A stretch of DNA of 50,450 nucleotides from a virus, in IMG/VR virus record IMGVR_UViG_3300017751_000031, positions 1 through 50,450 of that record. One strand, 5' to 3'. The position numbers and the translations under genes are program-made. Shown here in pieces: positions 2,747 through 47,070 of the stretch (positions are counted from its first letter, which is position 1; each line of letters starts with the position of its first letter). The notes beneath the pieces are model-generated. The model searched no databases. It had not been told where the DNA came from and was given only the letters and a program-made list of their open reading frames with translations.

Positions 2747-2756
2747 GTATAAATAT
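2747..2756 (-). promoter_or_regulatory. ATATTTATAC element upstream of GIY-YIG gene
   Basis: The coding strand reads ATATTTATAC, a one-base variant of the repeated element, 15 bases before the start. It touches the stop codon of the upstream adhesin gene, so it would start a new transcript at the boundary between tail and replication genes. Confidence 0.45.
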
Positions 2757-27300: not shown

Positions 27301-27960
27301 AAAACCACCTATAGTTAATGCTGCGTTTTGTGTACCAGTTGATGAATTTTGGCTTCTTGCTGTTGGAAGAGCTCCACCTGGACTCCAAGAAGAACCATTA
27401 TATTCTTCAACACAACTATATTTTACAGATGTACAGTGACCACCTACAGCTAATGTTGCATTTTGAGTACCATTTCCTCCTAGGCGGGCTCTAGCAGTAG
27501 CCATGTTACCACCATTAGTCCAAGAAGTACCATTATACTCCTTAGTAACATTAGTGGCTGAAGGAGTTCCTCCACCAAAAGCTACAGCAGCGGTTTGTGT
27601 TCCTGCAGCAGCATGATTTAATCTACCAGGGCTAGGGAAAGTTCCTCCAGTTTGCCAAGAATTACCATTATATTCTTCAGTAGCAGTTAATGAAGGGGAA
27701 CCTCCAATTGCTAAACCAGCATTTTGTGTACCTGCTCCTGCTACACCGGATCTTGCTGTGATTAAATTTCCTCCAGATGACCATGCTGAAGGTCCACTTG
27801 GGTTACTATAACTTACATCATGTGCAAATCCTACACTGCCAGTTGTTGCTAAAGATCCAGTTATATCAACTGATCCTGTGGCATTAATTCCACTGGTTAC
27901 TTTTAAAGAGTTTAATTCAGCATCACTTCCAGAAATGATGACTTTTTTCCAACTTGGCAT
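24370..27960 (-). CDS. long tail fibre with kelch-like head, collagen-like repeats and S74 chaperone
   Basis: The 1196-residue product starts [17 protein letters not shown], an N-terminal anchor shared in form with the 503-residue fibre. It has six kelch-like units (EYNG or EYDG at residues 96, 141, 187, 230 and 274, period 43-46), a Thr-Ser-Gly tract (397-542), a beta-rich [20 protein letters not shown] segment (598-617), a [16 protein letters not shown] domain (about 688-740), a long second Thr-Ser-Gly tract (747 to about 980), a second [16 protein letters not shown] domain, and an S74 chaperone with SDRDLKDNI (S1109, K1114) and [12 protein letters not shown]. It is a trimeric fibre that is probably self-processed at S1109. 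The start lies 72 bases from the promoter element, leaving an unusually long leader. Confidence 0.82.
25021..25722 (-). repeat. Thr-Ser-Gly coding repeat tract (long)
   Basis: The tract encodes about 234 residues of TSGTSG units broken by ATDG, AIDG, NAG, SDG and ANDGLDG variants. It is in frame and uses mixed synonymous codons. It is the second collagen-like shaft of the 1196-residue fibre. Confidence 0.85.
26335..26772 (-). repeat. Thr-Ser-Gly coding repeat tract
   Basis: The tract encodes residues 397-542 of the same fibre, mostly [12 protein letters not shown] and TSGTSATDG units. Its nucleotide pattern is very like the tract in the 1285-residue fibre. Confidence 0.85.
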
Positions 27961-28437: not shown

Positions 28438-29949
28438 TTATGAATAAATCCAAATGTCTTGATCACCACCTGTTTCTGTCCAGATGTTACCAGCAGCATT
28501 ATATCTAGTATCTGGTACTGCAGATGCAATTGTAGCACTTGTATTTTCAGTTCCTGCTAAAGCAATTGATACATACCCATCTGGGGTAAATACACTAGCA
28601 CTAGCATGGAAATCAATAGCAACTCCCCAACGTGATGGAGTACCACCTTGATTTTTAAATCCAAATACATCACCTACATCTTGGTTAGATTGTTGTACTA
28701 CGATACCACCATCTGACTCAGCATCAGATCCTGAGTTTAATAGGATGAATTGGTCTGCAATTTCTAATGTGTCTTCATGTCGGAATGAAGAAGTACCTTC
28801 TACTATTAGATCACCATTAACTGTTAAGTCATTTTGTACAATTACATCATTTGGTAAACCAACTGTAATAGTTTGACCTGCAGCAACTACATCTACTTCA
28901 TTAGCAGTACCTGCTACTGTTAATCCTTGAGTTTGTAAATCAACAGATCCAGAAGTTATACTAGAAGGTAAAGATCCTGAAATTTGTAATGTAGTAGCAA
29001 TTCCAGTTAAGCCTGAACCATCACCTTCAAATGAACCACTAAATGATCCTGAATTGAATCCTGTCTCAGCAAGTGTTACAGATTCACCTAGTGATACTTC
29101 GTGACTACCAATTGTAATTGAAGAGTTAACTAAGCTACCACTAATTTCACCTGTTGAGTCGTTATAAGATAAATCAATTCCAGCAGCACCCGTAGTATCA
29201 GCTACACTAATCTTTCCTCTTACACCTGCTGAGAAATGGTCTGAACCAGTGTTTAAAGAAAGTGTTACTGAACCTGTATTAGATGCTTTTGTAATGTCAG
29301 CTCCAATAGTTCCATCAGAACCAGAAACAAATCGAATTTGATCAGCTGATAGATCAATAGATTCTTGTCCTGAATCAGCACCAACTGTTAAATCGTTAGC
29401 ACCACCAATTTGAGTAGTAACATAATCAATGATAGCAGCATTAGTGGCTATTGTAGTATCATTATCATTATTAGCAATACCTTCAGCTTCAGTTACTACT
29501 GTATCTGCTGCTAGTTTAGTTAGAGTTAAACTGTTATCTTTAACTTCTAATTCGTTTGATCCATTTACACCTACTGTAGTATCGTCATACTGTACTGCAA
29601 TCGATCCTGATTCTCCTAGAGATACAGATCCAATTGTACTAATTGCACCCGTAGTACTACCAGAGATATAAATAGATGAGTTTTGTAAATCGTCGTTACT
29701 AATACCTCCGTCTGCTAAGCTAATTTCTATTAAATCGGTACCAGGGGTTCCCGTTAAGTTGATAGCAGTTTCACCTGAAGCGGTGTTAAAGGTAAAGGAA
29801 GAGGTAGGACTAGAAGCTATTAGTTCTACTCCGTTGATTGAAGCCGTTGCATAGGAATCGTGGATAGATGTACTGGTTATATATCCAGCTTGGTTATCTA
29901 ACTGTAAATTCGAACTCCCCGAAACGACTAGTTTTTTCCAAGTTGCCAT
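28438..29949 (-). CDS. tail fibre protein (503 aa)
   Basis: The N-terminus MATWKKLVVSGSSNLQLD matches the anchor of the 1196-residue fibre. The body is repetitive beta-type sequence with segments often seen in phage fibres: LTLTKLAADTV, GSFSGSFEGDGSGLTGI (about 314-330) and DLTVNGDLIVEGTSSF. The C-terminal part (about 395-503) is a more globular domain ending DQDIWIYS, with no S74 chaperone visible. Gly and Asp composition differs from the kelch-like proteins, suggesting a distinct structural role such as a shaft or connector. A 70-base AT-rich gap precedes it without a full ATATTTATAA element. Function inferred from repeat type and location. Confidence 0.75.
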   Translation of the reverse strand: MATWKKLVVSGSSNLQLDNQAGYITSTSIHDSYATASINGVELIASSPTSSFTFNTASGETAINLTGTPGTDLIEISLADGGISNDDLQNSSIYISGSTTGAISTIGSVSLGESGSIAVQYDDTTVGVNGSNELEVKDNSLTLTKLAADTVVTEAEGIANNDNDTTIATNAAIIDYVTTQIGGANDLTVGADSGQESIDLSADQIRFVSGSDGTIGADITKASNTGSVTLSLNTGSDHFSAGVRGKISVADTTGAAGIDLSYNDSTGEISGSLVNSSITIGSHEVSLGESVTLAETGFNSGSFSGSFEGDGSGLTGIATTLQISGSLPSSITSGSVDLQTQGLTVAGTANEVDVVAAGQTITVGLPNDVIVQNDLTVNGDLIVEGTSSFRHEDTLEIADQFILLNSGSDAESDGGIVVQQSNQDVGDVFGFKNQGGTPSRWGVAIDFHASASVFTPDGYVSIALAGTENTSATIASAVPDTRYNAAGNIWTETGGDQDIWIYS

Positions 29950-31962: not shown

Positions 31963-33780
31963 TTATCCAAATACAAATATTATATAAGCATGTGCATTAA
32001 CAGGAGGTGGTGGAGATCCTTTTCTAATAGCCCCATAATTTCCAGGGGTAAGAACTAATTCTACACTTGTATCTGTTTTAAATGATGTAAAAAAGTTATT
32101 TTCTGCTTCGGCATTACTTATGGTAGATGTAAACCCATCTGCTTTTATAGCATCGTCTAAATTACCTAATCCAAAAGTTGAGAATTTATAATCATTATTA
32201 GTAGCATTGTAAAACCAACCTCCTATAAAATGAGGAGGAAAATCTTCTTCATTGAACTGAAAATCTATTTTGTTAGTAGTACCTGTATAAGATATAGTAG
32301 TACTTTTATCTGAAGCTGCAGATCCTGAAAGTTGTGTTAATTGAGAAGCTGCAGTAAGAGCATTACTTGAACCATAGTTAACTTTAAAAATATATTTATT
32401 TACACCAGATCCAGTTCCTCCTCCTCCTCCTGATACTGTAATAGTTGCTTCACCACTACCATCATTAGTTATATTTTCAACTCCTGATCCTGAAAAGTTT
32501 AGTGTACTTAATCCTGTAGCTACAACACTTCCTGTGTGTTCTACTGTTATAGTTCCAACTCCTGAAGTTCCACTTGTGCCCGAAGTTCCCGAAGTGCCTG
32601 AAGTACCATCTACTCCTGAAGTTCCACTTGTACCTGAAGTTCCTGTAGTTCCAGAAGTACCTGATGTACCAGATGTGCCTAGGGATACTCCTGAAGAACC
32701 AGATGAGCCACTTGTGCCCGAAGTTCCCGAAGTGCCTGAAGTGCCATCTACTCCTGAAGTTCCACTTGTACCAGATGTACCTGAAGTACCGTCGTTTGAA
32801 ACACCTGAGCTACCACTTGAGCCACTAGTACCTGAGGTACCTGATGTGCCTGATGTGCCTGAAGTGCCATCTACTCCTGAAGTTCCACTTGTGCCTGAAG
32901 TACCAGTTGTGCCTGATGTTCCACTTGTACCAGATGTACCTAAGGATACTCCTGAAGAACCTGATGAACCTGAAGTACCAGTTGTACCTGAGGTACCATC
33001 TACTCCTGAAGTGCCACTTGTTCCACTAGTACCTGAGGTACCTGATGTACCATCATTTGAAACACCTGAGCTACCACTTGAGCCACTTGTTCCGCTTGTT
33101 CCACTTGTACCTGAGGTACCATCTACTCCTGAAGTGCCACTTGTACCTGATGTGCCTGAAGTACCTGATGTACCATCATTTGAAACACCTGAGCTACCAC
33201 TTGAACCTGAAGTACCTGATGTACCTGATGTACCAGAAGTGCCATCTACTCCTGAGGTACCTGATGTTCCACTTGTTCCTGAAGTTCCTGAATCACCTTG
33301 CCCACCAGATGTACCACTTGTACCACTTGTACCTGAAGTTCCTGTAGTTCCAGAAGTACCTGATGTACCAGAAGTTCCTGAAGTACCAGGAGCACCATTA
33401 CTACCTGGGGCACCATCTGTTCCACTTGTACCGCTAGTTCCAGAAGTACCAGATGTACCACTAGTTCCAGAAGTACCTGATGTACCTGATGTATTGGATC
33501 CTCCTTCTCCTCCTCCACCACCATAAGAACCTGTATAGTAGAATTGGCCAGTAGAAGTATCTACCATTACAGTTTTATAGTTGGTGTCACTATCAGTTGA
33601 GATTGTAGGGTTTGAGAAAGATCCACTAAAGACTGAAGAACCAGTCATATGGAAAGAACCTGAAATTGAAATATCGTAATCCTGTGTTGCTGTTAAAGCA
33701 TCTACAGATTGAGAAACATGCCAAGATTGTATTGTAGAACCTTGGACTATCTGTGATTCGTAGTTAAGTTTTTTGGCCAT
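31963..33780 (-). CDS. collagen-like (Thr-Ser-Gly repeat) fibre protein (605 aa)
   Basis: After an N-terminal beta-type segment (GSFHMTGSSVFSGSFSNPTI) and a Gly-rich linker, residues 97-407 are almost pure Gly-X-Y-like TSG triplets. Within it is a higher-order unit: SGVDG occurs six times and SSGSSGV five times, alternating with VSNDG or VSLG. The C-terminal 200 residues form a globular domain (NKYIFKVNYGSSNALTAASQ to NAHAYIIFVFG). A triple-helical or beta-type shaft capped by a trimerisation or binding head is likely. The Thr/Ser-rich repeats are candidate sites for glycosylation or hydroxylation by the cassette at 6000-10055. The ATATTTATAA element lies 16 bases upstream. Confidence 0.8.
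   Translation of the reverse strand: MAKKLNYESQIVQGSTIQSWHVSQSVDALTATQDYDISISGSFHMTGSSVFSGSFSNPTISTDSDTNYKTVMVDTSTGQFYYTGSYGGGGGEGGSNTSGTSGTSGTSGTSGTSGTSGTSGTDGAPGSNGAPGTSGTSGTSGTSGTTGTSGTSGTSGTSGGQGDSGTSGTSGTSGTSGVDGTSGTSGTSGTSGSSGSSGVSNDGTSGTSGTSGTSGTSGVDGTSGTSGTSGTSGSSGSSGVSNDGTSGTSGTSGTSGTSGVDGTSGTTGTSGSSGSSGVSLGTSGTSGTSGTTGTSGTSGTSGVDGTSGTSGTSGTSGTSGSSGSSGVSNDGTSGTSGTSGTSGVDGTSGTSGTSGTSGSSGSSGVSLGTSGTSGTSGTTGTSGTSGTSGVDGTSGTSGTSGTSGTSGVGTITVEHTGSVVATGLSTLNFSGSGVENITNDGSGEATITVSGGGGGTGSGVNKYIFKVNYGSSNALTAASQLTQLSGSAASDKSTTISYTGTTNKIDFQFNEEDFPPHFIGGWFYNATNNDYKFSTFGLGNLDDAIKADGFTSTISNAEAENNFFTSFKTDTSVELVLTPGNYGAIRKGSPPPPVNAHAYIIFVFG
32561..33492 (-). repeat. Thr-Ser-Gly coding repeat tract with higher-order units
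   Basis: This is the longest repeat tract in the window, about 310 codons. It has TSG triplets plus a larger unit of about 29-47 residues bounded by VDG and VSNDG or VSLG. The antisense strand is also open across it, an artefact of codon pattern. Confidence 0.85.
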
Positions 33781-33813: not shown

Positions 33814-34722
33814 TTACTGTCTATCAATGTTTATTAATATAGTTGTGTCAGTTGTTTTTGATATTGGAGTAGGTTGGGCTAATTTACCAACTGCTATTAA
33901 ATCTCTTTGATCATTATACAAACCAACGGTGGTTACATAAGGGGAAAATGATGCACTTGTTGCATAACCCCAAGGCAATCCATTAGAACCACTAGTAACT
34001 GATGGGTTTAGTGTATAATTAAATTCACTTTCCCCTATAGTACATTTATATTGTGTTTCATATACTGTATATGAACTAGAAAATGAACATGTTACATTTG
34101 TATTATCAACAAAAGTAGATATTTCTTCACTCCAATAGTCTCTAGTTCGTTCCCCTCCAGTTAAAACTATAATACCATGTTTATAAATAATATTACCTAC
34201 ATAAGTAGATCCAGAAATTAATCTTCCTTCTCCATCATCTGTATAACTTCCACTAAGAGTAGTAAATTCAAATGATTCAGGTTGAATATAATCTCCATAC
34301 ATATATTGAGGTATAGATAATACCCCAATAATAGAATTAGAAGCAGTTGGAAAATATCGTTTTGCTTCTAAAGTAGTATCTAAATAATTTTGATAAGAAG
34401 GGGAGTAAATTATACCAGTTATAGTACCATCAGGATTAAAACTAGCAGTTGAAACATTTGATAATTCTCCATTACTACCTGATAGGTAATTAGTGTAATA
34501 GAGTTGTTTAATTTGATTATAAACTAAAGATTGAGATTTTGAATTATCTGTAGGGCCAGTTTCGGTTTGGTTCTCTAAGTAATCTATATTTTTACCTAAG
34601 TATCTTCCTATATTAACATTACTCCCAGATAATGCACTTTGCCCCTCAAATCTAAATCCTTTATTTAAATGAAGAGGGGATACTATTACATCTTGCGCAT
34701 TGAGTGTTTTGAAAGCAGCCAT
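33814..34722 (-). CDS. structural protein with FNY/VGLYND C-terminal domain (302 aa)
   Basis: The N-terminus (MAAFKTLNAQDVIVSPLHLNKGF) is followed by a beta-rich body with a Tyr-rich segment (SFEFTTLSGSYTDDGEGRLI). The C-terminal 75 residues hold ESEFNYTLNPS, VTTVGLYNDQRDLIAVGKLAQP and TILINIDRQ. The same C-terminal block occurs in the next gene upstream, so the two are paralogues. It is probably a baseplate or fibre-attachment component because it lies between the baseplate giants and the collagen-like fibre. It is separated from its paralogue by only 3 bases. No T4 homologue recognised. Confidence 0.65.
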   Translation of the reverse strand: MAAFKTLNAQDVIVSPLHLNKGFRFEGQSALSGSNVNIGRYLGKNIDYLENQTETGPTDNSKSQSLVYNQIKQLYYTNYLSGSNGELSNVSTASFNPDGTITGIIYSPSYQNYLDTTLEAKRYFPTASNSIIGVLSIPQYMYGDYIQPESFEFTTLSGSYTDDGEGRLISGSTYVGNIIYKHGIIVLTGGERTRDYWSEEISTFVDNTNVTCSFSSSYTVYETQYKCTIGESEFNYTLNPSVTSGSNGLPWGYATSASFSPYVTTVGLYNDQRDLIAVGKLAQPTPISKTTDTTILINIDRQ

Positions 34723-34725
34723 TCA

Positions 34726-35757
34726 TTAGAAGTCTAATTTGATTCTTATTAATGCTTCTTTTGTAAAATTCTTTTGAATAGGTCTAGACAATTTAGCGGT
34801 TGCTACTAATTCATTTGAATCATTATATAAACCTACTGAAGTAGGATATACTTGAGGATTATTAATAAAATAATCATAAATTACCTCACCAGTAGAAGAA
34901 GCTATAAATGATGGGTTTTCTGAATAATTAAATTCTGAGTTTCTAGCTCTAATGAATACAAAATCAGATGTAATTGTTTCTTCTGAGTTTAAAGAAAATG
35001 ATGAACCTGATTGTAGTACACTGAGTAATTTTAAATTATTTTGCCCATCAGTATTAGAAGTTATAGTAGTATCTAAATTAACACCATAAGTAGGATCATC
35101 TAAAGCAGCTCCATTTAATATTATAGTAGAAGTATCAGGTAAAAATAACCCATAAGAACCAATAGTTGTACTTTGACCATTAGCTCCAGCATACCCTTCA
35201 TTAGCATATGCACTTCCTTCAGACCCACTTACAATTTCAAATGCTCTTTGAGTGCCATAATAAGTAGGTAAAGTTACATCTTTAGAATTATCAGTTAAAG
35301 TTAAAACCCTAGTATTTCCATCACTAATGGTTAATTCGAAAGAACCAGGTAAAAGTTTTTCTTTATATCTAGCTCTATTTATATTTAAAACATAAAAATA
35401 TTGGTTAGTAGTTACACCCCCAAAGCTAAAATCAGAATCTTCATCTTCTAATACTAAACTTCTATATTGCCCATAAATTGTTCTAGAAAATGATAATTCA
35501 GTAGATACATTTGGGTTAAATGCTAAACTGCCTCTTCCGTTTTTATCTGCAAAAGCAATATCAAATTGTACTTCGGCATCAGTTGCTGTTGGGGTAGATT
35601 GATAAACAGCTAAATAATAATCCCCGGATCTATCTCCTTCTTGGGTAGCACTATAATAAAATTGAGATAGGTTTGGTTGATTTCCACTCCATACTGTTGC
35701 TGATACAGTGTCCGCACTTACTAAAAAATCTTCGGTTTCTAATCTTTTAAATCCCAT
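34726..35757 (-). CDS. structural protein with FNY/VGLYND C-terminal domain (343 aa)
   Basis: The product begins MGFKRLETEDFLVSADTVSATVW and has the same C-terminal block as its downstream paralogue (NSEFNYSENPSF, PTSVGLYNDSNELVATAKLSRP, LIRIKLDF). Its middle part (about 45-240) differs, with YYLAVYQST and EFELTISDGN-like beta strands. This shared C-terminus with different N-terminal bodies suggests a common docking surface on the baseplate. It follows the 219-residue gene with a 6-base gap. Role is inferred from context. Confidence 0.65.
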   Translation of the reverse strand: MGFKRLETEDFLVSADTVSATVWSGNQPNLSQFYYSATQEGDRSGDYYLAVYQSTPTATDAEVQFDIAFADKNGRGSLAFNPNVSTELSFSRTIYGQYRSLVLEDEDSDFSFGGVTTNQYFYVLNINRARYKEKLLPGSFELTISDGNTRVLTLTDNSKDVTLPTYYGTQRAFEIVSGSEGSAYANEGYAGANGQSTTIGSYGLFLPDTSTIILNGAALDDPTYGVNLDTTITSNTDGQNNLKLLSVLQSGSSFSLNSEETITSDFVFIRARNSEFNYSENPSFIASSTGEVIYDYFINNPQVYPTSVGLYNDSNELVATAKLSRPIQKNFTKEALIRIKLDF

Positions 35758-35763
35758 AGCTTA

Positions 35764-36423
35764 TTATGTTGTAGTTTTATTAATAGTTACTGGGATAGTA
35801 ATTCTAGCACCACTATCTAATCCTACTACTGTTAAAGTTGTTCTAATTGCAGTTTGTGAACCAAATAATGTATTTACAGTAGTTGCTTTTAGATTGATTT
35901 GAGATCCAATTACAGTTTTAGATACATTAGTACCTAAAGTAGTAGTAGCATTTTGAGCAGTAGCTGCTTCACTATTAATACCCATTCCTGTAAAATTATT
36001 CATTAATCTAACATCAGCTATTGTTGCTGAGTATCCACTTGTTTCAAAGGTTTGCTCGTTATCTAAATAATTTAGAGTTTGTGGGGTAATTGCTAATTGA
36101 GCCCCTTGTTTTAGGGTAATAGCGCTATAACCTAAATTAAGTACTGGTAATTTAGCTGTACCACGAGGTAAAGTTGCCAGTTTATATTTCATGATTTGAC
36201 TTTCGTCAGGAAAAGCTTCTAGTAATGGCATGCCATCAATTGCTTCTCCATAATATGATGAACCCGAGGGGTGAGCTGGGTTGAACATTGTGTAGTCTAT
36301 CTCATCATCAGATAGAGCAAACTGTGTAATGCTAAAAGAACCATCACCACGAGCGAGTAATTCACGTCCTTTTTTTGTTAAAATGGCATCAACAGTTATT
36401 ACAGTATTATTTAAATATCCCAT
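35764..36423 (-). CDS. conserved structural protein (219 aa)
   Basis: The N-terminus MGYLNNTVITVDAILTKKGRELLARGDGSF, of which the part ILTKKGRELLA is most distinctive, is a pattern I have seen in structural genes of uncultured T4-like phages, but I cannot name the family. The rest is beta-rich with a Thr-rich C-terminus (TTVNTLFGSQTAIRTTLTVV). There is no membrane segment or enzyme motif. The promoter-like element lies 19 bases upstream, so it probably heads a transcript that includes the two VGLYND paralogues. It is likely a baseplate or tail-fibre adaptor. Confidence 0.65.
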   Translation of the reverse strand: MGYLNNTVITVDAILTKKGRELLARGDGSFSITQFALSDDEIDYTMFNPAHPSGSSYYGEAIDGMPLLEAFPDESQIMKYKLATLPRGTAKLPVLNLGYSAITLKQGAQLAITPQTLNYLDNEQTFETSGYSATIADVRLMNNFTGMGINSEAATAQNATTTLGTNVSKTVIGSQINLKATTVNTLFGSQTAIRTTLTVVGLDSGARITIPVTINKTTT

Positions 36424-36453: not shown

Positions 36454-39400
36454 TTATTCTATTAGTTTTTTATCTTCTAAGTCCTTAATTATTAAATTAG
36501 GATCTATATTTATTTCTTCTACTGGAAATTCTGGAAGGATTACACCAGGAGATGTAGAAGGAACAACTGTAGTTACTGATCCACTTATAGAAGGAAAATA
36601 AGGTTTTGGTGTATTTAAAATAACTGTTCCTTTTTCTTCCATAAATCTACGTACTACAAAAAAGTCAAAATTAGTTGTAAAATCTTCAATAGGGGGAGAA
36701 ACTGTTACCCTTAAATTACCAGACTCTGCGGGAGGAGATATACTAATGATTTTATGAACTTTATTTTCATTATTTTCAAATTTAATCTCATCCTCTAACT
36801 CTAAGCTCCAAAATTTAGTAATATTAGGAAAAGTTACAAAGCTAGGTTCTTGACCAAATGGAAATTTAGGCCAAGTAGAAGGAACATAAGGGATATCTAC
36901 TTGTTTTAATTCATTATCATAAGCTTCGTTTACTTTTTCTGATTGCATTTCTAAAACACTTCCTGTAGTATTAGCTACTACCCTCCAATATGGTTTTACA
37001 GCACCTTCTGGTGGGGCTGATTTAGTATTACTTAATATAAATCTATCAAATTGAATACCACTATGAGGGTCAGCTTGTGGGTAGAAATAATTTTGAAATT
37101 TTTTACCAAGATCATTTCTTGCAAAAAATCCTCCATGTGATATTTTAATATTATCTCCTTGTGTAAAATAAGGGCGTTGAAAAATTCCTGCTGATCTTGG
37201 TTTTACTTTTGCTTTGATTGTCCATCTACATTTAACCCAGGTTCCAGTATAATTACCATTATTATTACTATTTAATAAACTAGATACATCATATGATAAA
37301 CCATTATTTACCATATAACTTTTTATATCATCTCTATGGAAGTCAATACGTACATAACCATTAAATTTTTTAACATGTTTGCTAAATTTTCTCATATAAC
37401 TTACACTATGGGATGATATCCCAGTACTAGTGTTTGGGTTTGTATGGATAAATTCTAATACAACATCACTAATACTTAAACTTGCCATTTTATTATCCAC
37501 TAAAGCTCTAAGATAATAATTACCCACTCGTTTGTAATTATATTTTTCACTACTTTCAAAAAAACCTTGATCATCATCAGTTAACTGTCTAATAATAGGA
37601 GTAGTTTCAAAAGTATGTTCAAAACCAAAACTATAATTATCTGATAAAGGTTTACCATTACCTGAACCCTGAGGAGCAAGATTATCATCAATAGGAAATG
37701 AAATTGTTCCTGTACTTGGATTATAAGAAGAAGTGACATTAACCCCTGAACCTGAAGTTGCAAAATCTGGGGAGAGTTGATTTAAATTAGTATTAGTAGT
37801 AATGTTTACATCATACCTATCAATCCCAGCAAAAGTTCTTTGATTTGTTGTTGGAAACGCTGAACTAGAGGCTCTAAAAGAATAATCGTTAAAATCAGGT
37901 GGTTCGGGTTGTGGGGGATTTATACCTGTAAAATTTATTGAACCTGTGGCTTCTCTTCCTCCTATTTGAGTATATAAAATAGGAGTTGGTATAACACCTA
38001 CATGTTTAACTCTATGGTCAGTGTTTAACATTATTAATGATTCATCCTCTTTGACACTAGTAGATAAAGTTAAAGTAGAACCATCTTCAAAAGTACCTTC
38101 TAAATTATAATAATTATAACTACCTAATCGAGGGTTAAATCTATTACCATTAGCATCAAATATATACTTCATATCTAATGTAGTTGTACCTTCTAATAAA
38201 GGATATAGATCATAAATTCTATTAAAATATCCAAAATATGCTTTATTAATATCTATATTAGAAATCCTACCAAAAGTACCTTCATCACCATCTGTAAATA
38301 TATTATACTGTTGAGCATTAGATCTAGATCCTAGATATCTTGAGTTTGCAGAAGAAGCTTTTGTATAATTTGATTCAGGTACAGTTGCTCTAACTGCTTC
38401 ATCTTTTAGGATTTGGTCAAAGTTTACAGGATAAAGAGACCCACTAGTTGGTGAACTATAATCTACGTCTTGCAATCGAGCATTTGGTCTATCATTTACA
38501 ATATTAGAAAGTAAAGGGTTACAATCATCATTTAACTCTAAGTAATTGTTAAATGTAACTGGAACTTTATCATCTGTTGGAGGTACAGGTGCACCTATAC
38601 TCATAGTATAAGAAGTAGCTATTAAAGAAGAATTAAAAGATTGGGTATTAGTATTATCAACAGATAATGATAATCTTAAAGTATCTCCGGGGGAAATTAA
38701 ACCTGTAGTAAGAGGATATTTTATTGTAATTGATGGTTTATTAAGAATATCTGTTGAAGATATATATTCTGTAGATGAAGCTAATAAACTAGATCCTTTA
38801 TATATGTTTAATGAAGCAGTTCTCCAAGTAATTACATTATCCCCACTTCCTTCACCTCCATATTCAAATTCACTATCATCATAACTAGCTGTACCATAAT
38901 GAGAAGGTCTAACAACATCTAAGGATAAATAATCTAGATTAACAGAAGCAGTTAACCCAACATTTGTAGATAGATTAGTTTCAAAGGTATATATACCATC
39001 TTCTCTATATGAAGATCTAGATTCTGAATAGTTTACATATACTGCTTCTATTTCATTAGGGGGAGGACCAACTGGTGTACTTCCAGTCCCGTAAGATCCT
39101 GTTCCATAATTATCATTTCCGTATCCCCTATCTGCAGATCCAGTTGAAGTTAAAACATAAGCTTTATATGGACGGTGGAAATATCTATTATACTTAAATC
39201 TATTAGTATCTCCTTCTCCAATATTACCTCTACCTCTAGTAAGCCAAAGGGATTGAGAAGGCTTAACTTCAATAATAAATTGATTATCAGGAGTGAGATA
39301 AGTTATAGTATTATTAGAAGGAGAAACTAATTCAACATCATATAAATTATTATAGGAATATTCACCTGTTTTTTTAGTATCTAAATGTTCTTCTCCTTCT

Positions 39401-41286
39401 ACTAAAATATTACCACTAGTTTCATGATAATAATATTTTATCTCACCACCCCCTGATGTTTTAAAAGTAGGACCTATTTGTATAGCATTAGCTTGTGATG
39501 TGTAAGATTGAAAATCAGATGAAGTTATTGTTATATAACTACTTGTAGCATCAATAAAAAATGGTAATTCTGGAGATATGTAGAAAGGGGCTGTATCATA
39601 ATCTCTTTCTGTAGATCCTGTTCTAAATTGTTTTAAAGGGTCATAATAGTCACCTCCAACACTAACTAAATCATCTCCTACATAATAATTAGCATTAGCC
39701 CATCCTCTAAAAAATTGTTCAGATGGATAATTAGAAGAAGCAGAAGGGAAAAACCCTTGAGGGATAGATTCACTTATATTAGTTGTAAGTACAGGTTCAA
39801 CAATATTTCCTGATGATGAGGCATATACAACATATTGTCCTTCTGCTAAGAAATTATGATTAGTACTTGCGAAATTTTGAGAATCAACAGCAAAAGTTGT
39901 ATCTACATTCTCTTGATCTACAAATAAATGAGAATATTCATTATATTTAGTAATATTATGTAAATAATAAGTTTCGGGGTAATTTCCATTAGCTGAATAT
40001 AATAAACTACCTTGGGCGTCAAAAGGATTATATAATATAAATCTACTCCATATAGATTTTTTAATAAAATCAGATAAAATTGTACCTCCAAAAGAGATAT
40101 TATTCATTTTTATATGTTTCACTTTATAACCATCATTCCATAACCAAGCATATCCTGCTGAATTAGGGTAAAAATTAGGATCTATAAAATCAGATTCAGG
40201 TAATCCCCAATCAATAGCAAATGGTTGGGAAATGGATCCTGAACCAAATGATGCTGTTTGGGTAATACATGCAACTACATAATCTTTATCTATACTGGTT
40301 ACTTCTCTTTCATAGTAACCAGGAATTATATCATTGTAAAATTTAATATCTACAATTGATCCTGATCCTGCAGCTATACTGCTAGATAAGGGGTTGGCAT
40401 TTGGAATTGCACTACCTATTTTAGAAACTCCTAATTTAAAATAACCACTAGAAGCAGGATTTGATCCTTCAAATGTAACACTTTCTAAATCAAATCTATG
40501 ATAAAATAGATCTTCTCCACTTCCACTTATAATAATTTGTACTTCTCCATATGGGTCTGAAGGGGTAGATGCAGGAGCCACTGAGGAAGATAATGCTGTT
40601 AAATAATAGATAATATCTTCTTGACTGTTATTATCTTTAATATCAATGTATATTTCAGTACTATCTTCTTCATTTGTACCACCTTCACTGCCAATGCTGC
40701 CTTTATTTAATCTAAAATAGCTAGCTCCAGGATCAGCTGATGAGGTATTAGTATTAAAAGTATAATTAAAATCTTGTGATCCACTATAATATGCAAATAT
40801 TTTTTTAGATCTAGATAAATTTTCTAAAACAAAATAATCATATATAAGAGAAGTAGATGGAGAAGGTACAGTAGGTTTTATGATGATGATTGGATCTTTT
40901 ACCTTTTCGTCATTACTATCATCAACTACACCTGAGGAACAGTCATATATTTCTCTTACTATACCTATACTATCAACTAGTATAGCCTTTTGGGGTGTCG
41001 ATCTTGAATTTATGGTAATACCCCACCATTTGTTCCGACCATTTAATGAAGATAATTGTTCATCAGTATAAATTATACTACCTTTACGTATAGCACTATA
41101 GGAATGTTGAGAATATCCAGGGGTATAACCTAAGTTTTGAGGGTTAAAATAAGTACAAGTAACTTCCTCACCATCAGTTCCTACTGGCGTTAATAGAAAT
41201 GGATTTAATCGAATATTTATTCCATCTCTATAGTTACCCCCAGTACCATCGTCGGGTTGGCGAAATCTAAAATCGTCTACAGCCAT
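36454..41286 (-). CDS. giant virion structural protein (1610 aa)
   Basis: This is the largest product in the window. It begins MAVDDFRFRQPDDGTGGNYRDG and is made mostly of beta-type sequence rich in Ser, Tyr, Asn and Thr, with recurring NYSESRSSYREDG- and SGDTLRLSLSVDN-like blocks. The C-terminal 300 residues include a distinct globular domain (HVKKFNGYVRIDFHRDDI; FYPQADPHSGIQFDRFIL; SLELEDEIKFEN) and end in an acidic helix (LIIKDLEDKKLIE). No enzyme motif or coiled coil is seen. Its place downstream of the gp6 and 1429-residue genes matches the T4 region of gp7-gp10, so a peripheral baseplate or tail-fibre network role is likely, but I see no direct T4 homology. The promoter-like element ends 13 bases before the ATG. 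Confidence 0.65.
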   Translation of the reverse strand: MAVDDFRFRQPDDGTGGNYRDGINIRLNPFLLTPVGTDGEEVTCTYFNPQNLGYTPGYSQHSYSAIRKGSIIYTDEQLSSLNGRNKWWGITINSRSTPQKAILVDSIGIVREIYDCSSGVVDDSNDEKVKDPIIIIKPTVPSPSTSLIYDYFVLENLSRSKKIFAYYSGSQDFNYTFNTNTSSADPGASYFRLNKGSIGSEGGTNEEDSTEIYIDIKDNNSQEDIIYYLTALSSSVAPASTPSDPYGEVQIIISGSGEDLFYHRFDLESVTFEGSNPASSGYFKLGVSKIGSAIPNANPLSSSIAAGSGSIVDIKFYNDIIPGYYEREVTSIDKDYVVACITQTASFGSGSISQPFAIDWGLPESDFIDPNFYPNSAGYAWLWNDGYKVKHIKMNNISFGGTILSDFIKKSIWSRFILYNPFDAQGSLLYSANGNYPETYYLHNITKYNEYSHLFVDQENVDTTFAVDSQNFASTNHNFLAEGQYVVYASSSGNIVEPVLTTNISESIPQGFFPSASSNYPSEQFFRGWANANYYVGDDLVSVGGDYYDPLKQFRTGSTERDYDTAPFYISPELPFFIDATSSYITITSSDFQSYTSQANAIQIGPTFKTSGGGEIKYYYHETSGNILVEGEEHLDTKKTGEYSYNNLYDVELVSPSNNTITYLTPDNQFIIEVKPSQSLWLTRGRGNIGEGDTNRFKYNRYFHRPYKAYVLTSTGSADRGYGNDNYGTGSYGTGSTPVGPPPNEIEAVYVNYSESRSSYREDGIYTFETNLSTNVGLTASVNLDYLSLDVVRPSHYGTASYDDSEFEYGGEGSGDNVITWRTASLNIYKGSSLLASSTEYISSTDILNKPSITIKYPLTTGLISPGDTLRLSLSVDNTNTQSFNSSLIATSYTMSIGAPVPPTDDKVPVTFNNYLELNDDCNPLLSNIVNDRPNARLQDVDYSSPTSGSLYPVNFDQILKDEAVRATVPESNYTKASSANSRYLGSRSNAQQYNIFTDGDEGTFGRISNIDINKAYFGYFNRIYDLYPLLEGTTTLDMKYIFDANGNRFNPRLGSYNYYNLEGTFEDGSTLTLSTSVKEDESLIMLNTDHRVKHVGVIPTPILYTQIGGREATGSINFTGINPPQPEPPDFNDYSFRASSSAFPTTNQRTFAGIDRYDVNITTNTNLNQLSPDFATSGSGVNVTSSYNPSTGTISFPIDDNLAPQGSGNGKPLSDNYSFGFEHTFETTPIIRQLTDDDQGFFESSEKYNYKRVGNYYLRALVDNKMASLSISDVVLEFIHTNPNTSTGISSHSVSYMRKFSKHVKKFNGYVRIDFHRDDIKSYMVNNGLSYDVSSLLNSNNNGNYTGTWVKCRWTIKAKVKPRSAGIFQRPYFTQGDNIKISHGGFFARNDLGKKFQNYFYPQADPHSGIQFDRFILSNTKSAPPEGAVKPYWRVVANTTGSVLEMQSEKVNEAYDNELKQVDIPYVPSTWPKFPFGQEPSFVTFPNITKFWSLELEDEIKFENNENKVHKIISISPPAESGNLRVTVSPPIEDFTTNFDFFVVRRFMEEKGTVILNTPKPYFPSISGSVTTVVPSTSPGVILPEFPVEEINIDPNLIIKDLEDKKLIE

Positions 41287-41299
41287 ATATTATACTTTA

Positions 41300-41309
41300 T
41301 TATAAATAT
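41300..41309 (-). promoter_or_regulatory. ATATTTATAA element upstream of 1610-aa gene
   Basis: The coding strand reads ATATTTATAATAAAGT, 13 bases before the ATG. Confidence 0.5.
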
Positions 41310-41316
41310 TTTTTAT

Positions 41317-44300
41317 TTAAGAATATGAACTACAATTTCTTGTTGATGTAAATCTAGTTCCATTCCAATATCTTACTATACTACCATCCGAATAATACCC
41401 TGCAGAAGTAAATGAAGGTACTCCTGTATTAGTATAAACTGCGGTTGCTGTAGATAGATAAGTTGAATCAATTCTAAATTCTTGTGTTATATCATTACAA
41501 GCTAAAAGTGGTGTAGATACATGATACCCAAGATATACATTAATTAATTCTAAATTTTCTTGTAAATCACTAACTGATCCTGAAATTGATGCCCCTACAT
41601 TTAACCATCCATATGGTACTGATGATGTAACATGAGCTATTCTAGTTAATGAAGAAGTAAGTACTGGGTAGTAAGAGTTATTTATTGATTCTGAATAATT
41701 AACATTTATAATACTACCTGTAAATACTGTTGGAGCAGTTATATTACCATATATGTCTACTTCAAATCCACTACTACTCCGTTCTGCTGATCCTGTTGCC
41801 ATACTAAATTCTAAGGTTGGTGCTGCTTCTTGTAAAGCACTAGCAGTTGCTCTAAATGTTTGATTAAAATTCCTATAGTTTAGAGGTTCATCGGGTACTC
41901 TTAATTCAAAACTAGCTGTTCTCCAAACATTAGATCCTGTTAAATCATAAAATGGAGGAAAAGCTACGTTAGCATCAACATAAGATATATCTCCTACTAT
42001 AGTAAAATTACTCCCAGATGGTGGGGTTATAACTCCTAAATAATCTACATCAAAATCTGTAGTGAATATTAAGTCATCTTGAGTTAAAGCATCGGGTATT
42101 CCTGCAGAAGAGGTATATATTAAATATTCATTGTCTGATCCAGAAAAAGCTTGTATTTTATATAGATATTCAGGAATATTTTCCCAACTGTAGTAAGCAT
42201 GACATAAATCATCTTTTCCTCCTATTTGTAACTTTGTGTTTATAGTTGAACCACTAAATTCTCCATTATATAATTCACGTTGATCATCTCTATCATAGCC
42301 AATAAGCCCAAGAATAGAAGGAGTAAATTCTACCCAACTTTGAGTAATATTAAACCTATTATTTAAAGTATTAGGTTGAACTGGGGGTGATAAAATATCT
42401 TGTACATAAGAACCAAAATATTCAATTCCATTATAAGGTTCAAACATACCCGCGGTTCCTCCCATAAATTTATATACTGGACCACTATTGTAATTTTGGA
42501 CAAAGGGTTTTAGAGAAGCAGTTAGTTGTTCATCTTTAAAGCTTACATTTATAGACCTTTGTTTATTTCTCTCAAGAATATGTTGTTTTACTACTACACC
42601 AGAACTTAAACTTGTTCTAGCAGGAGTAAAATCTTTAATCATTTTAAATAATGAATTATCAAAGTATTTTATTAAACGAATAAAATCTTTAATATCATAA
42701 CTATGTAAATATTTTTCAAAATAAGTATCTCTTAAAGTATCTAAATCTGGGTAATTATAACGTGACTCGGATACTTGTCTTGGATCTCCTATGTAATCCC
42801 CCATATTAAAATTACCTACTTGAGCTATAATATCATTGTCTACTTGGTTAGTAGGGGAAAAAGATACTTCTAAGTAATTAATATTAGGTGTATAATTTTG
42901 AGTTGTATAAGACTTTTGTTCTAAAGAAGATAAGGGAGATAAAGTATCTCCTGATGGAATTAAGTTGTTTTCAAGAGTTATTTTATCTGTGATACGATTT
43001 TTAATACCAACAGGTGATTGATTTAAATAAATATTTTCTTTATTACTTGAAAAACTAGCAGAAGAAATATAAAAATCACTGTGAGTAGAGAAAGAAGAAG
43101 TTATACTAGATCCTGAAGTTTTAGGGTGAATTGATTCTCTAGAATTAATATCTAACATTGACCCTAAAGATGCTCTAAATATTAATTCATTAGGAGTTGA
43201 ATTTAATGAATTTCCTAAAACTGAATAAGGGTTTAAAACATAATTATCAAATGAAGATTGACTTATTTCTGAGTTAAAGTATCTAATTTCTTGATAAGAC
43301 CCTGAAAAGTATGTGTATCCAGGCAAACTAGCAGATGAAGGGAAGTGTATAGAACTTACAGACCTATAATAACTAGAGGTAGTAAAAGTAGATTTATTAG
43401 ATTGATGTAGTATACTATTATTTTCTTTATTTGCTACATATAGACTTGCAGTTGAAATAGTTTCACTACCTACAGTTGTCATTACAGACCACCAATTTCC
43501 ATCAAATACAGGTAAAAATACACTAGCTGTTGGGGCACCACTTACTATACCTTCAGGGTAAAATGTAATTTTACCATATGAATTTTCAGGATTAGATATT
43601 GAACCAGAGTAAGAACCACTAGTATAACTAGATCCAGTATAACTTAATACTAAAGCAGATTGATTTACATCTCCAGTCCATAATAATTGATTTATATTTT
43701 CAGTTGGAATTCCTAAAGTTTTAAATCTAAATTGTACTGTTTTTGGAGAGGTAACACCCCAGTTAGAATTAGGGCTAAATGAAGATGAGAATGTATTAGT
43801 ACCATCTACATCTAAAACTTTATTATATACTCTACTTTCTAATTCCCAATTTTGAGTTGTATCTAATGCTTGGTCTCCAAATTCATTTACTTGCAAGATA
43901 GTATCAGGAATACCATAAGAAGTAATTAATGCTTTTAATCCAGCTACTGTACCTTTAGTTTTAAGTAAATATGGAATATTATGGTAGATACGTTTGTATA
44001 ATCGCTTATTTACATCATCTAATGGTATTGTATCATTTGAAGCAGATATTAATGTATCTATATATTCTGACCCAGTAGTTGGGAAATTATTGCCTGTAGG
44101 GGTAATGCCAAGGAATGCTTCATATAAATCATTAGTATTAAAATTATTTGAGTATAATTTAACTCCAAAATCTCTAATAGCATCAGCTACTAAATCTTTA
44201 GATATACCATAATCTAATCTATTATCAGCATTAAATCGATTTACTAAGTCTTTTGTATAGATCCAAATATTATCAAAATGTTGACCTACCATATCAACAA

Positions 44301-45606
44301 ATAATTCATATTTTTGGTTATCAGGATCTTCTCTTAAATAGTCTGGTATGGCCCAGTATAACCAATCTTGGTTATCTTGATCATAATTTGAAGCAGATAA
44401 TGCTTGCCCACCATAATAAGCACTTGTAGGGTCAGCACTTCCTAACCAATCTAATACAATAGTTGAACCTGTTGAGAATAAGGAATATGGTTTAGAAGTA
44501 TTTGATTTAGGATAACTATATTGCGATCCCGAATCATAGTAGAGGAAGTATTCATAACCATCAAAATTTTTAGTTATATTATCAATTTTTCCCTGGTATG
44601 TAGATTTTGAAGAGCTAAAAGAAATAGAACTTGTGATACTACTAGTAACATTAGAATCTAAAGTTGAAATTTCATTTTGATAGTTTTCAATTAATCCTAC
44701 TTTGTAGTAAAAGTTTTCTAAACGTGTTAACGCAGAAGAAAACTTTATATATTGAGATCTATCTTCATAATTGACATTAATGTTTATTCCCTTTTCTTGT
44801 AATAAGCTTTGTAATTGTTGGTTTGATGATGTTATTTCTGACCCTAGTAAAGTATTATAGGTGGCTACTTCAGATTCAACCCCACTTTCATTTTTAATAT
44901 CTAAACTGTAATTTGGACCTGCTATATAAGTAAAATCTTGTGGTTCAAATACAGGTATTGGAAACTTAACTTGGTAAGCTTCGGCATTAGATATATTTTC
45001 TACTACCCAACATTGTGATTTTAAATCAAATGATGAAGGTAAGGGTTCATACAATTTAATTAATACAGTAGGATTATCATCTACTCTAGTATCTAATTGT
45101 ATGTTATTAGCTATAACTAAATTATTATTACCAAAATTTACATAAAAATCTACAAAGTGTGTTTGGGAATCTCTGTAATCTATAAAATCGTTAGTTGAAG
45201 ATATTATAACATCATTCTCAATTACTGATGATGCTAATCTAAGTTCTGTTCTATCCCCACTAATTTCAGAAACATAATAATTGGATTGTATAGATGAACC
45301 TAAAAGCTTTCTATAAAAGTAATAATTTATATAATAATTACCTTCATCATATCCAAATGATTGTAAATCCTGGATAGGATCTAAATTGATATGATCATCC
45401 TTGATAGTATAAGTAAGTAATTCTCTAGAAGTAGGTGGGAAGATTTTGTTTTGATTTTCATCATAAACACAATATTCAATATAATCACTAGAAGAAAAAG
45501 ATGTATCTAATTCTACACTAGATATTATATCAACATCAGCTTGGGAATAACTCTCAAGTTTGAATGTCTCTGGGTTAACCTGTAATGTTAAAATGTTATC
45601 CGCCAT
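41317..45606 (-). CDS. giant baseplate/tail protein with LamG-like domain (1429 aa)
   Basis: Residues 1-380 are beta-rich with an internal coiled-coil-like part (about 260-345). Residues 415-580 form a helical domain (YELFVDMVGQHFDNIWIYT; RIYHNIPYLLKTKGTVAGLKALI) that recurs in large tail proteins of uncultured phages. Residues about 600-830 resemble a LamG/concanavalin-A-like jellyroll ending in GSYQEIRYFNSEISQ. The C-terminus is a module with TYLSTATAVYTNTG, GYYSDGSIVRYWNG and a closing Cys. The LamG part may bind host glycans. It follows gp25, gp6 and two small genes and overlaps the 128-residue gene by 11 bases, so a baseplate role like gp7 or gp10 is likely by position, not by sequence. 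Confidence 0.65.
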   Translation of the reverse strand: MADNILTLQVNPETFKLESYSQADVDIISSVELDTSFSSSDYIEYCVYDENQNKIFPPTSRELLTYTIKDDHINLDPIQDLQSFGYDEGNYYINYYFYRKLLGSSIQSNYYVSEISGDRTELRLASSVIENDVIISSTNDFIDYRDSQTHFVDFYVNFGNNNLVIANNIQLDTRVDDNPTVLIKLYEPLPSSFDLKSQCWVVENISNAEAYQVKFPIPVFEPQDFTYIAGPNYSLDIKNESGVESEVATYNTLLGSEITSSNQQLQSLLQEKGININVNYEDRSQYIKFSSALTRLENFYYKVGLIENYQNEISTLDSNVTSSITSSISFSSSKSTYQGKIDNITKNFDGYEYFLYYDSGSQYSYPKSNTSKPYSLFSTGSTIVLDWLGSADPTSAYYGGQALSASNYDQDNQDWLYWAIPDYLREDPDNQKYELFVDMVGQHFDNIWIYTKDLVNRFNADNRLDYGISKDLVADAIRDFGVKLYSNNFNTNDLYEAFLGITPTGNNFPTTGSEYIDTLISASNDTIPLDDVNKRLYKRIYHNIPYLLKTKGTVAGLKALITSYGIPDTILQVNEFGDQALDTTQNWELESRVYNKVLDVDGTNTFSSSFSPNSNWGVTSPKTVQFRFKTLGIPTENINQLLWTGDVNQSALVLSYTGSSYTSGSYSGSISNPENSYGKITFYPEGIVSGAPTASVFLPVFDGNWWSVMTTVGSETISTASLYVANKENNSILHQSNKSTFTTSSYYRSVSSIHFPSSASLPGYTYFSGSYQEIRYFNSEISQSSFDNYVLNPYSVLGNSLNSTPNELIFRASLGSMLDINSRESIHPKTSGSSITSSFSTHSDFYISSASFSSNKENIYLNQSPVGIKNRITDKITLENNLIPSGDTLSPLSSLEQKSYTTQNYTPNINYLEVSFSPTNQVDNDIIAQVGNFNMGDYIGDPRQVSESRYNYPDLDTLRDTYFEKYLHSYDIKDFIRLIKYFDNSLFKMIKDFTPARTSLSSGVVVKQHILERNKQRSINVSFKDEQLTASLKPFVQNYNSGPVYKFMGGTAGMFEPYNGIEYFGSYVQDILSPPVQPNTLNNRFNITQSWVEFTPSILGLIGYDRDDQRELYNGEFSGSTINTKLQIGGKDDLCHAYYSWENIPEYLYKIQAFSGSDNEYLIYTSSAGIPDALTQDDLIFTTDFDVDYLGVITPPSGSNFTIVGDISYVDANVAFPPFYDLTGSNVWRTASFELRVPDEPLNYRNFNQTFRATASALQEAAPTLEFSMATGSAERSSSGFEVDIYGNITAPTVFTGSIINVNYSESINNSYYPVLTSSLTRIAHVTSSVPYGWLNVGASISGSVSDLQENLELINVYLGYHVSTPLLACNDITQEFRIDSTYLSTATAVYTNTGVPSFTSAGYYSDGSIVRYWNGTRFTSTRNCSSYS

Positions 45607-45982
45607 TTTCTGTTGTTAATGATCCTGTTATACCCAATGGAGCACCAGAAACTGTTTCTGCTAATTCAATTTGAGTATTTAATAATTCTTCTCTTAATGT
45701 AGTAATTTCTTGTTGTAATGCTTCAACTAATTCGTTTGTTTCTTCAAAATTAATATATTCACCACTAGTTTTAACTAAATATTCATGAGAATTAGTTTCA
45801 CCTAAAGCAGGAATATCATAAAATAATTCATCATATAATTGAAAAAATTCTTCAACTGTAGGAGTATCAGCAATAGCATCAGTAATAGAGACAACACCCA
45901 ATTGATTAAATTGAGTGTCGATAGTTTTAGGGTATTGTGATTTATTAAATACCTTCTTTTTTGTGTCTACTGATTGTTTCAT
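45596..45982 (-). CDS. hypothetical small protein with coiled coil (128 aa)
   Basis: The N-terminus is basic (MKQSVDTKKKVFNKSQYPKT). The body is acidic, and a coiled-coil-type helix (ETNELVEALQQEITTLREELLNTQIELAETV) occupies about residues 78-109. No family is recognised. It starts within a TAATG overlap with the DNRLRE-like gene and ends inside the start of the 1429-residue gene, so the three are translated from one message. It may be an assembly partner or an adaptor of the wedge; this is inference from position and shape. Confidence 0.65.
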   Translation of the reverse strand: MKQSVDTKKKVFNKSQYPKTIDTQFNQLGVVSITDAIADTPTVEEFFQLYDELFYDIPALGETNSHEYLVKTSGEYINFEETNELVEALQQEITTLREELLNTQIELAETVSGAPLGITGSLTTENGG

Positions 45983-47070
45983 TATCCATTTATAACTTTA
46001 AATATATAATCTTCATCTTTTACCATTGTACTGTTATCAACAGTAGTTTGGATTAATATTTTATAATTTCTTTCAGGCTCTAAACCATTCATATATACAT
46101 CAAAATAACTTCCATTTTCATCATTACTAATTTTAGTATATGAAGTGTCAAAATTAACTACATATTCATCTGTATCTAAATCTTTAATAGCATAATATGA
46201 AGCAGTAGGTAAACTATGATTAGTAGTGTATATTGAGGAGGTTTGGAATGCACGAGTGGGGTATGTTGGACGCACATTTAATCTAAAACGGTTTATACTT
46301 TCTGAATAATAAATTCCTGGGTTTTCATCTAATGCTATGGTTAGATCTGAGGTTGTTATTTCTGTTGGTGCATTTGATGAAGTGGAAAAATCATCCCATC
46401 TAAATTCTAATTGAGGGGGATAAATTGTGTTTGTATCTACAGAGAAAAATTTAAATTCAGGTTGGTTTTCACTTCCAGAAATAAGTTCTTGACTATCCAC
46501 TAACTTAATTAAGTAACTATCTGTTCCCATAGATAAAATATTATTGTATATCATACTGGTAGCAGTAGTTACATCAAGATTTAGATCTTTAGTGGTTCTA
46601 GTATCAAAGGATTGGGTTAATTCTACATACCCTGGTCCTGGACTTGATCTTAAGTCTCCTCCTGGGGTAGACCAAGCACCAGAACCTGAGGAAAATTTGT
46701 AATTCCAACTTACGCCATTTGTGGTTTGAGGGGAATCTAAATATTGTCCTGACCCATTATTCCAGCTTCCTGAAGATAATCTAACTTCTAAAGTAGTATC
46801 TTGATTTATGCCTTGGGCTTCGGCTATATATAGTCTAAGATATGTTTTGTAATTAATAGTAGGGGTTGATCCACTTATAATTTTATTATTAATAACATTA
46901 ACTATTTCATTTTCGTTAAAATCTAATATCGCCCTTGCAGCTCTAGGAGAAGGGGAAATTGATGGGTTAGTACTAGATACTTCTAATATAGCATCTATTC
47001 CTGTATTCATATTAGGATATGCTGAATACAAGGTGGCATCTTTGGTTGGGAAAATTTTATATATTGCCAT
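45982..47070 (-). CDS. DNRLRE-like virion protein (362 aa)
   Basis: The first half resembles the DNRLRE/carbohydrate-binding-like beta-sandwich: IFPTKDATLYSAYPNMNTG, then RAARAILDFN, YLRLYIAEAQG, LEVRLSSGSWNNGSG, GVSWNYKF, GAWSTPGGD and a closing NLDVTTATSMIYN. In secreted proteins this fold binds polysaccharide or strengthens walls. The C-terminal half (about 215-362) has SINRFRLNVRPTYPTRAFQTSS and YKILIQTTVDNSTM, more like a fibronectin-type domain. It lies directly after the gp6 gene, so it is probably a baseplate component, perhaps helping early contact with the host surface. The domain call is by pattern; binding was not shown. Confidence 0.7.
   Translation of the reverse strand: MAIYKIFPTKDATLYSAYPNMNTGIDAILEVSSTNPSISPSPRAARAILDFNENEIVNVINNKIISGSTPTINYKTYLRLYIAEAQGINQDTTLEVRLSSGSWNNGSGQYLDSPQTTNGVSWNYKFSSGSGAWSTPGGDLRSSPGPGYVELTQSFDTRTTKDLNLDVTTATSMIYNNILSMGTDSYLIKLVDSQELISGSENQPEFKFFSVDTNTIYPPQLEFRWDDFSTSSNAPTEITTSDLTIALDENPGIYYSESINRFRLNVRPTYPTRAFQTSSIYTTNHSLPTASYYAIKDLDTDEYVVNFDTSYTKISNDENGSYFDVYMNGLEPERNYKILIQTTVDNSTMVKDEDYIFKVING

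Follow-up and report, generated by a model that had tools for sequence, protein, structure and literature searches.

Two giant baseplate-region genes of an uncultured virus probably encode one oversized, split gp7/gpI-type wedge protein

Two giant genes in the baseplate region

We analysed a 50,450-nucleotide stretch of viral DNA (the window; positions 1 to 50,450 of the IMG/VR record IMGVR_UViG_3300017751_000031), in which two giant genes, encoding proteins of 1429 and 1610 residues, lie downstream of the baseplate wedge genes gp25 and gp6. The two giants seem to encode jointly one oversized, modular gp7/gpI-type wedge subunit that is divided between two chains in this lineage, a reading to which we give a probability of about 0.65. 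An earlier note on this DNA had proposed that the T4 gp7-gp12 region is replaced here by two giant structural genes, with the inner wedge conserved. This interpretation was partly supported. The gene order, sizes and coordinates after gp25 and gp6 were exactly as the note gave them: on the minus strand, gp25 and gp6 are followed by genes for 362- and 128-residue proteins, the two giants, both with ATG starts, and then genes for 219-, 343- and 302-residue proteins. The replacement itself was not borne out, and gp7, rather than missing, probably exists here as an oversized protein in two pieces, because the core of the first giant is most likely a gp7/gpI-type wedge subunit.

The giants as halves of one long protein

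Relatives of the 1429-residue protein were encoded in 160 IMG/VR stretches, and the best 80 loci were kept. The order gp25-gp6-362-128-giant-219-343-302 recurred among them by similarity, and in further loci by gene lengths only. The region from the first giant through the 219-residue gene was covered by 46 loci, including the window, a few that were near-identical, and two (L039 and L080) whose core is truncated by a contig end. The slot occupied by the giants held one open reading frame (ORF) in 23 of these loci, two in 18, three in 4 and four in 1. In 22 of the 23 single-ORF loci, the core shared its ORF with a portion of the 1610-residue protein's C-terminal module, which forms the end of these giants; the exception was Microcystis phage Mel-JY01. 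The hidden Markov models (HMMs) of the modules, built from the window's own matches within these loci, found the C-terminal module in 44 of the 46 slots, with no match in Mel-JY01 or the uncultured LR756508. The longest single ORF reached 3265 residues, and the total length of the slot ranged from 1336 to 3624 residues, with 3039 in the window.

The position of the cut varied among the relatives. Some relatives (L048, L064) were cut directly after the core of about 1058 residues. In others the reference point was the region that matches residues 361-611 of the 1610-residue protein: the cut followed it in L011, L019 and L044 and preceded it in L003, L005, L008 and the window. The window's two halves share the same frame (frame 0) across a gap of 30 nucleotides. 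Stop readthrough or an assembly error was considered as the cause of this split and rejected, because L008, which also carries both giants and whose best segment is 67% identical to the 1429-residue protein, is cut at the same place with a 25-nucleotide gap and in another frame. Since the single-ORF relatives hold the core and the C-terminal module together, and the cut points lie elsewhere in others, the two giants together amount to a single gene, being the halves of what is one long protein in many relatives. Two separate structural genes, as the earlier note described them, are thus not the general rule, the core and the C-terminal module being one polypeptide in 22 of the 46 loci.

Conserved ends and a hypervariable middle

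The window giants were cut into pieces and compared with 43 loci. As these had been selected to contain both the core and the 219-residue gene, the presence of the two in all 43 follows from the selection. Residues 1-590 of the core had a median identity of 51%, and the part after the LamG-like domain reached 55.3%. These values match the level of gp25 (57%) and are not far under that of gp6 (61%); the 219-residue protein had the highest median identity of the compared genes. Beyond the core, conservation fell sharply. Residues 1061-1429 of the first giant matched 20 loci, only one of them at a coverage of at least 40%, and residues 1-360, 361-615 and 616-915 of the second giant found matches in 1, 7 and 4 loci (1, 7 and 1 at this coverage). 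In the C-terminal module, residues 916-1230 were matched in 39 loci and residues 1346-1610 in 29, while the link between them (1231-1345) was matched in none. These piece-by-piece comparisons show that the hypervariable middle, inside which the split falls, is flanked by a core that is well conserved and an end that is moderately so. About 1280 hypervariable residues separate the core from the C-terminal module, and they are perhaps the fibre-side part of the protein.

The LamG-like domain that the earlier note had assigned to the 1429-residue protein was confirmed as a LamG/concanavalin-like fold, with a VIA-align Z score of 17.2 over 204 residues and 3.7 Å to 4dqa. The corresponding piece (residues 591-865) was present in 41 of the 43 loci. 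Flavobacterium phage immuto (Immutovirus; L081) lacks this domain and shows a gap in its row of the core alignment; the LamG domain is therefore an insertion in the core.

The LamG fold and the hypervariability might suggest that the giants encode tail fibres or adhesins and not wedge components, with the 362- or the 128-residue protein as the partner of gp6. Tail-fibre PHROG matches further downstream and the small genes directly after gp6 would also suit such an arrangement. We regard it as improbable, as the core is conserved at the gp25 level, which is unusual for fibres, the LamG domain is an insertion absent from immuto, and the profiles of the 362- and 128-residue proteins show no similarity to gp7 or gpI.

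The core as a gp7/gpI-type wedge subunit

The inner wedge proved to be conserved, as had been claimed: gp25 was identified through Pfam and PHROGs, and gp6 through PHROGs and hhalign. The core is encoded downstream of both in the wedge operon. Within the core, residues 420-575 carry a pattern that resembles gpI-type wedge proteins (LPxxYRxD ... K/R-G-T-xxGL), the likeness beyond the KGT part being judged by eye. T4 gp7 is described as the equivalent of these proteins in the available text of PMC10457771. A gpI profile was built from ten proteins, namely P2 gpI, PA0619, A-1(L) gp32 with two relatives, a fragment of a Streptomyces 9gtp chain and four genome matches; a scan with P2 gpI returned 80 near-identical P2 copies, which were unsuitable for profile building. 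This profile scored 28.7 against the helical region of the core, the alignment covering 28 columns that surround the KGT motif. None of 100 column shuffles reached this score (maximum 18.7), and the reversed profile gave 12.1. Since column shuffling also breaks up the local order that real proteins have, controls from real proteins are preferable; 17 other profiles scored from 9.7 to 17.6. The whole core scored 29.5, and a separate alignment of the 1429-residue family scored 24.4. T4 gp7 itself scored 27.4, a value reached by none of 60 shuffles (maximum 21.0).

Structural comparison pointed weakly in the same direction. The AlphaFold model of the whole 1429-residue protein, with a mean predicted local distance difference test (pLDDT) value of 62.4, matched mainly LamG structures. 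A second model was therefore made of the immuto core, which naturally lacks LamG (mean 65.0). Its top VIA match was the A-1(L) wedge protein gp32 (8kea_c, an identity that was confirmed), with Z 7.9 over 157 residues and a root-mean-square deviation of 15.3, a weak match. The Streptomyces contractile injection system (CIS) baseplate chain 9gtp_A stood at row 26, with Z 5.5 over 119 residues and 4.9 Å. A protein bearing TIGR02242 matches 9gtp_E, a chain letter that differs from the A of the VIA row. The A-1(L) wedge is given as (gp31)2-gp32 in the available part of PMC10966104, and that of Streptomyces as two Cis11 and one Cis12 in the corresponding part of PMC12237407; the 190-residue chain of the latter system is probably Cis12. 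T4 gp7 was not among the best 50 VIA matches listed, an absence that does not argue against it, and the strongest Foldseek matches among viral models were uncharacterised proteins of uncultured viruses.

The possibility that gp7 is truly absent, and that the giants are unrelated proteins replacing the whole peripheral baseplate with other contacts to gp6, as the earlier note proposed, has to be weighed against these results. The lack of a recognised T4 match, on which that proposal was based, was reproduced. In hhalign comparisons of 16 window profiles (including three single sequences; the 1196-residue fibre-like protein and a few other window genes were left out) with T4 gp53, 5, 6, 7, 8, 9, 10, 11 and 12, the window gp6 profile (w613) gave the positive control, a probability (P) of 90% to T4 gp6, and the 15 others gave P of at most 2%. 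By these profiles, gp8-gp12 have no detectable counterpart among the window genes tested. The two giants of the window had no PHROG match at an E-value of 1 or below and no Pfam match above the curated cut-off. Pfam, PHROGs and NCBIfam searches, run with single members as well as with sets of 36 or 8, gave weak single-member matches only, such as Gp6-like_1st at 0.0087 in 1 of 36. Sequence searches of the PDB with profiles of the core, 362-, 219-, 343/302-residue and 1610-residue C-half families gave no match, or E-values of 0.26 and 0.44 that were taken as chance.

Several further points weigh against identifying the core with gp7/gpI. Two small genes stand between gp6 and the giant, unlike the arrangement in T4 and P2 (W-J-I). 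In hhalign, the core against the gpI profile reached a probability of 6% on its 28 columns, and 0.8% on 19 columns with the 1429-residue family alignment; against T4 gp7 it stayed below 1%, and against single P2 gpI or TIGR02242 proteins below 4%, the last being uninformative. T4 gp7 aligned to columns 1-105 of the gpI profile and the core to columns 122-149, so that the two registers do not confirm each other. Because neither Tail_P2_I (Pfam; 36 members and the window) nor TIGR02242 (NCBIfam; 8 members and the window) matched over the curated cut-offs, the core was not filed in these families. Both AlphaFold models are of low mean confidence, and the stretch of the immuto model aligned with gp32 (425-734) is mostly below a pLDDT of 70, with much below 50. 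A Z score of 7.9 is a level typically reached by unmatched models, and Foldseek with the immuto core model found nothing among solved structures at an E-value of 0.001 or below.

On balance, the true absence of gp7 seems rather unlikely, although the missing similarity to T4 gp7-gp12 and to curated families, the two intervening genes and the low hhalign probability all speak for it. The core's KGT region scores above every control, near T4 gp7's own value, a wedge protein tops the structural list, if weakly, and the core is conserved much as gp25 is. As these weak profile and structural lines combine with the gene order, the core with its inserted LamG domain is most likely a gp7/gpI-type wedge subunit. 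The giants are probably an oversized, rapidly changing form of a standard baseplate part and not a replacement for it.

Proposed arrangement of the baseplate

By analogy with T4, pyocin R2, XM1 and A-1(L), the helical region of the core would join two copies of gp6 in a heterotrimer of the (gp6)2-gp7 kind, with gp25 sitting above it. The C-terminal module of the 1610-residue protein, together with the LamG domain and the hypervariable middle, may reach out from the wedge to hold the fibres and adhesins encoded just downstream, for which the 219-residue protein, the 343/302-residue paralogues and the collagen-like 605-residue protein are candidates. Receptor binding or fibre movement might then be relayed by the wedge to both gp25 and the sheath. 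Tasks that T4 divides among the domains of gp7 and gp8-gp12 would be done largely by one long protein, here of two chains, shared with a few unrelated small proteins.

A more general idea is offered only tentatively. The peripheral baseplate of these phages could be largely one giant wedge chain of up to 3265 residues instead of separate gp8-gp12-like proteins. Its core on the sheath side and a docking module at its C-terminal end would be fixed, whereas the hypervariable cassette that lies between the two could be exchanged. Repeated cutting and joining of the chain within the cassette would allow the receptor range to be swapped with the contraction machinery left untouched.

These observations give a proposed function to large "hypothetical" proteins in a phage group with many metagenome contigs and two cultured members. 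The fused, split and LamG-free versions form a natural series for structural work. They also offer a test of gp7-type proteins as the site where contractile tails get re-engineered for new fibres.

Neighbouring genes

The positions of the features are collected in Table 1. The 128-residue gene overlaps the start of the first giant by 11 nucleotides. The DNRLRE-like nature claimed for the 362-residue protein was weakly supported: one of 29 family members matched CBM96 (PF24517, 5.5e-5), which we take to be the DNRLRE family, while the window's own protein did not.

Table 1. Features of the gp25-302 region, in window coordinates
Feature	Position	Strand	Evidence
gp25-like sheath initiator/wedge protein, 135 residues	48913..49320	-	Pfam GPW_gp25 E 5.6e-11; PHROG 261 E 1.2e-21
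gp6-like (J) wedge protein, 613 residues	47072..48913	-	PHROG 10646 (baseplate wedge) E 2.6e-14; hhalign to T4 gp6 P 90%, E 2e-6
362-residue protein, candidate DNRLRE/CBM96-like	45982..47070	-	matches in 40/43 loci
128-residue protein (coiled coil in the earlier note)	45596..45982	-	matches in 39/43 loci
First giant, 1429 residues: probable gp7/gpI-like wedge core, LamG insertion, variable extension	41317..45606	-	
Motif region of first giant, residues 420-575	43882..44349	-	IPxYLRxD ... YKRIYHNxPYLLKxKGTxxGLxALIxxYGIP
LamG/pentraxin-like domain in core, residues 593-860	43027..43830	-	fold comparison
Conserved C-terminal part of core, residues 866-1060, containing FKMIKDFTPART	42427..43011	-	median identity 55.3%, 43 loci
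Hypervariable stretch: first giant residues 1061-1429, spacer, second giant residues 1-915	38542..42426	-	
AT-rich spacer between giants, 30 nucleotides	41287..41316	-	sequence; same frame on either side
Second giant, 1610 residues: variable N-terminal part, conserved C-terminal module	36454..41286	-	
C-terminal module of second giant, residues 916-1230 and 1346-1610, with unconserved link 1231-1345	36457..38541	-	
219-residue protein	35764..36423	-	median identity 75% over 43 loci; RM378 homologue
343-residue protein, paralogue of adjacent 302-residue gene	34726..35757	-	matches in 43/43 loci; RM378 homologue
302-residue protein, 25% identical to 343-residue paralogue	33814..34722	-	HMM cross-matches; 43/43 loci

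Further genes of the window, all on the minus strand, were noted. The 605-residue protein (31963-33780) contains long GTSGTSG collagen-like repeats; the antisense strand of its gene is open for 330 residues (32534-33526, plus strand), which is likely a shadow ORF. Residues 333-424 of a 503-residue protein (28438-29949) match phrog_18186, "baseplate wedge subunit" (E 2.5e-7). Six proteins scattered across the window match phrog_27227, of unknown function (2756-3796, 3798-4880, 11085-12350, 12364-13641, 13645-17502 and 24370-27960). Two 2OG-Fe(II) oxygenase genes lie near each other (7575-8213 and 8838-9476).

Comparison with known systems

No published description of this module was found among the matches listed, judged by titles and the starts of abstracts. 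Its relatives in the phage collection are the cultured phages immuto and Mel-JY01 and the uncultured LR756508, which share the module order and homologues of gp25, gp6, the 362-residue protein, the giant core and the 219- and 343-residue proteins. They differ in that immuto lacks LamG and has a second gene of 403 residues, and that Mel-JY01 has one ORF of 1336 residues with no match to the C-terminal module. The giant is annotated as hypothetical in immuto and Mel-JY01, and LR756508 is unannotated. Core relatives on genome contigs were found at four loci, all on contigs of metagenome-assembled genomes, of which two bear the labels Winogradskyella and Flavobacteriaceae; L113 and L114 among these show the gene lengths of the module. 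Another of these loci, L116, encodes a distant core relative (29%); its contig was assigned by binning to Candidatus Pacearchaeota but is perhaps a phage contig.

Rhodothermus phage RM378 (Far-T4) carries neighbouring homologues of the 219-residue (E 2e-8) and 343-residue (tblastn E 1e-13) proteins. They are adjacent there (L246:11761-14342) and are followed by a 235-residue protein that partly matches the 219-residue family. No homologue of gp25, gp6 or the core was detected with these HMMs in RM378 from 12 to 129.9 kb. The available text of PMC7198788 names RM378 as the sole Far-T4 isolate and links Far-T4-like viruses to marine Bacteroidetes. The window, which shares the gene pair with RM378, probably comes from this wider group. 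In cyanophage S-TIM54, a stretch of a "virion structural protein" (L253:7723-10149) resembles A-1(L) gp32 (32%, E 4e-3); this large protein is possibly another enlarged gp7/gpI-type protein.

The core seems to resemble P2 gpI, pyocin R2 Tri2 PA0619, A-1(L) gp32 and the 190-residue Streptomyces chain in its K/R-G-T/S motif region, with a profile similarity above shuffles, and its position in an operon after gp25/W and gp6/J recalls the W-J-I order of P2. However, gpI-type proteins have about 175-200 residues, whereas the core has about 800 without LamG and the chain reaches 3265 in relatives. Like T4 gp7 (1032 residues), the giant is a large protein encoded after gp6, a single one in T4, and the two reach scores of 27-29 with the gpI profile, though on different columns. 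It differs from T4 gp7 in the lack of detectable direct similarity, in having an inserted LamG domain, a variable extension and a C-terminal module, and in not being followed by recognisable gp8-gp12. Alg12 of AlgoCIS, Afp12 and Pvc12, which are fusions of gp6- and gp7-like parts, offer a further parallel, a fusion-prone gp7-like part that meets the tail fibres, as far as the available text of PMC8894135 describes it. Its authors regard this part as a hotspot of re-engineering, a view that fits the proposed fibre-holding role of the giant's outward parts. In those proteins the gp7-like part is fused to the gp6-like part, whereas here gp6 remains separate, and fusion and fission occur on the C-terminal side of the gp7-like part.

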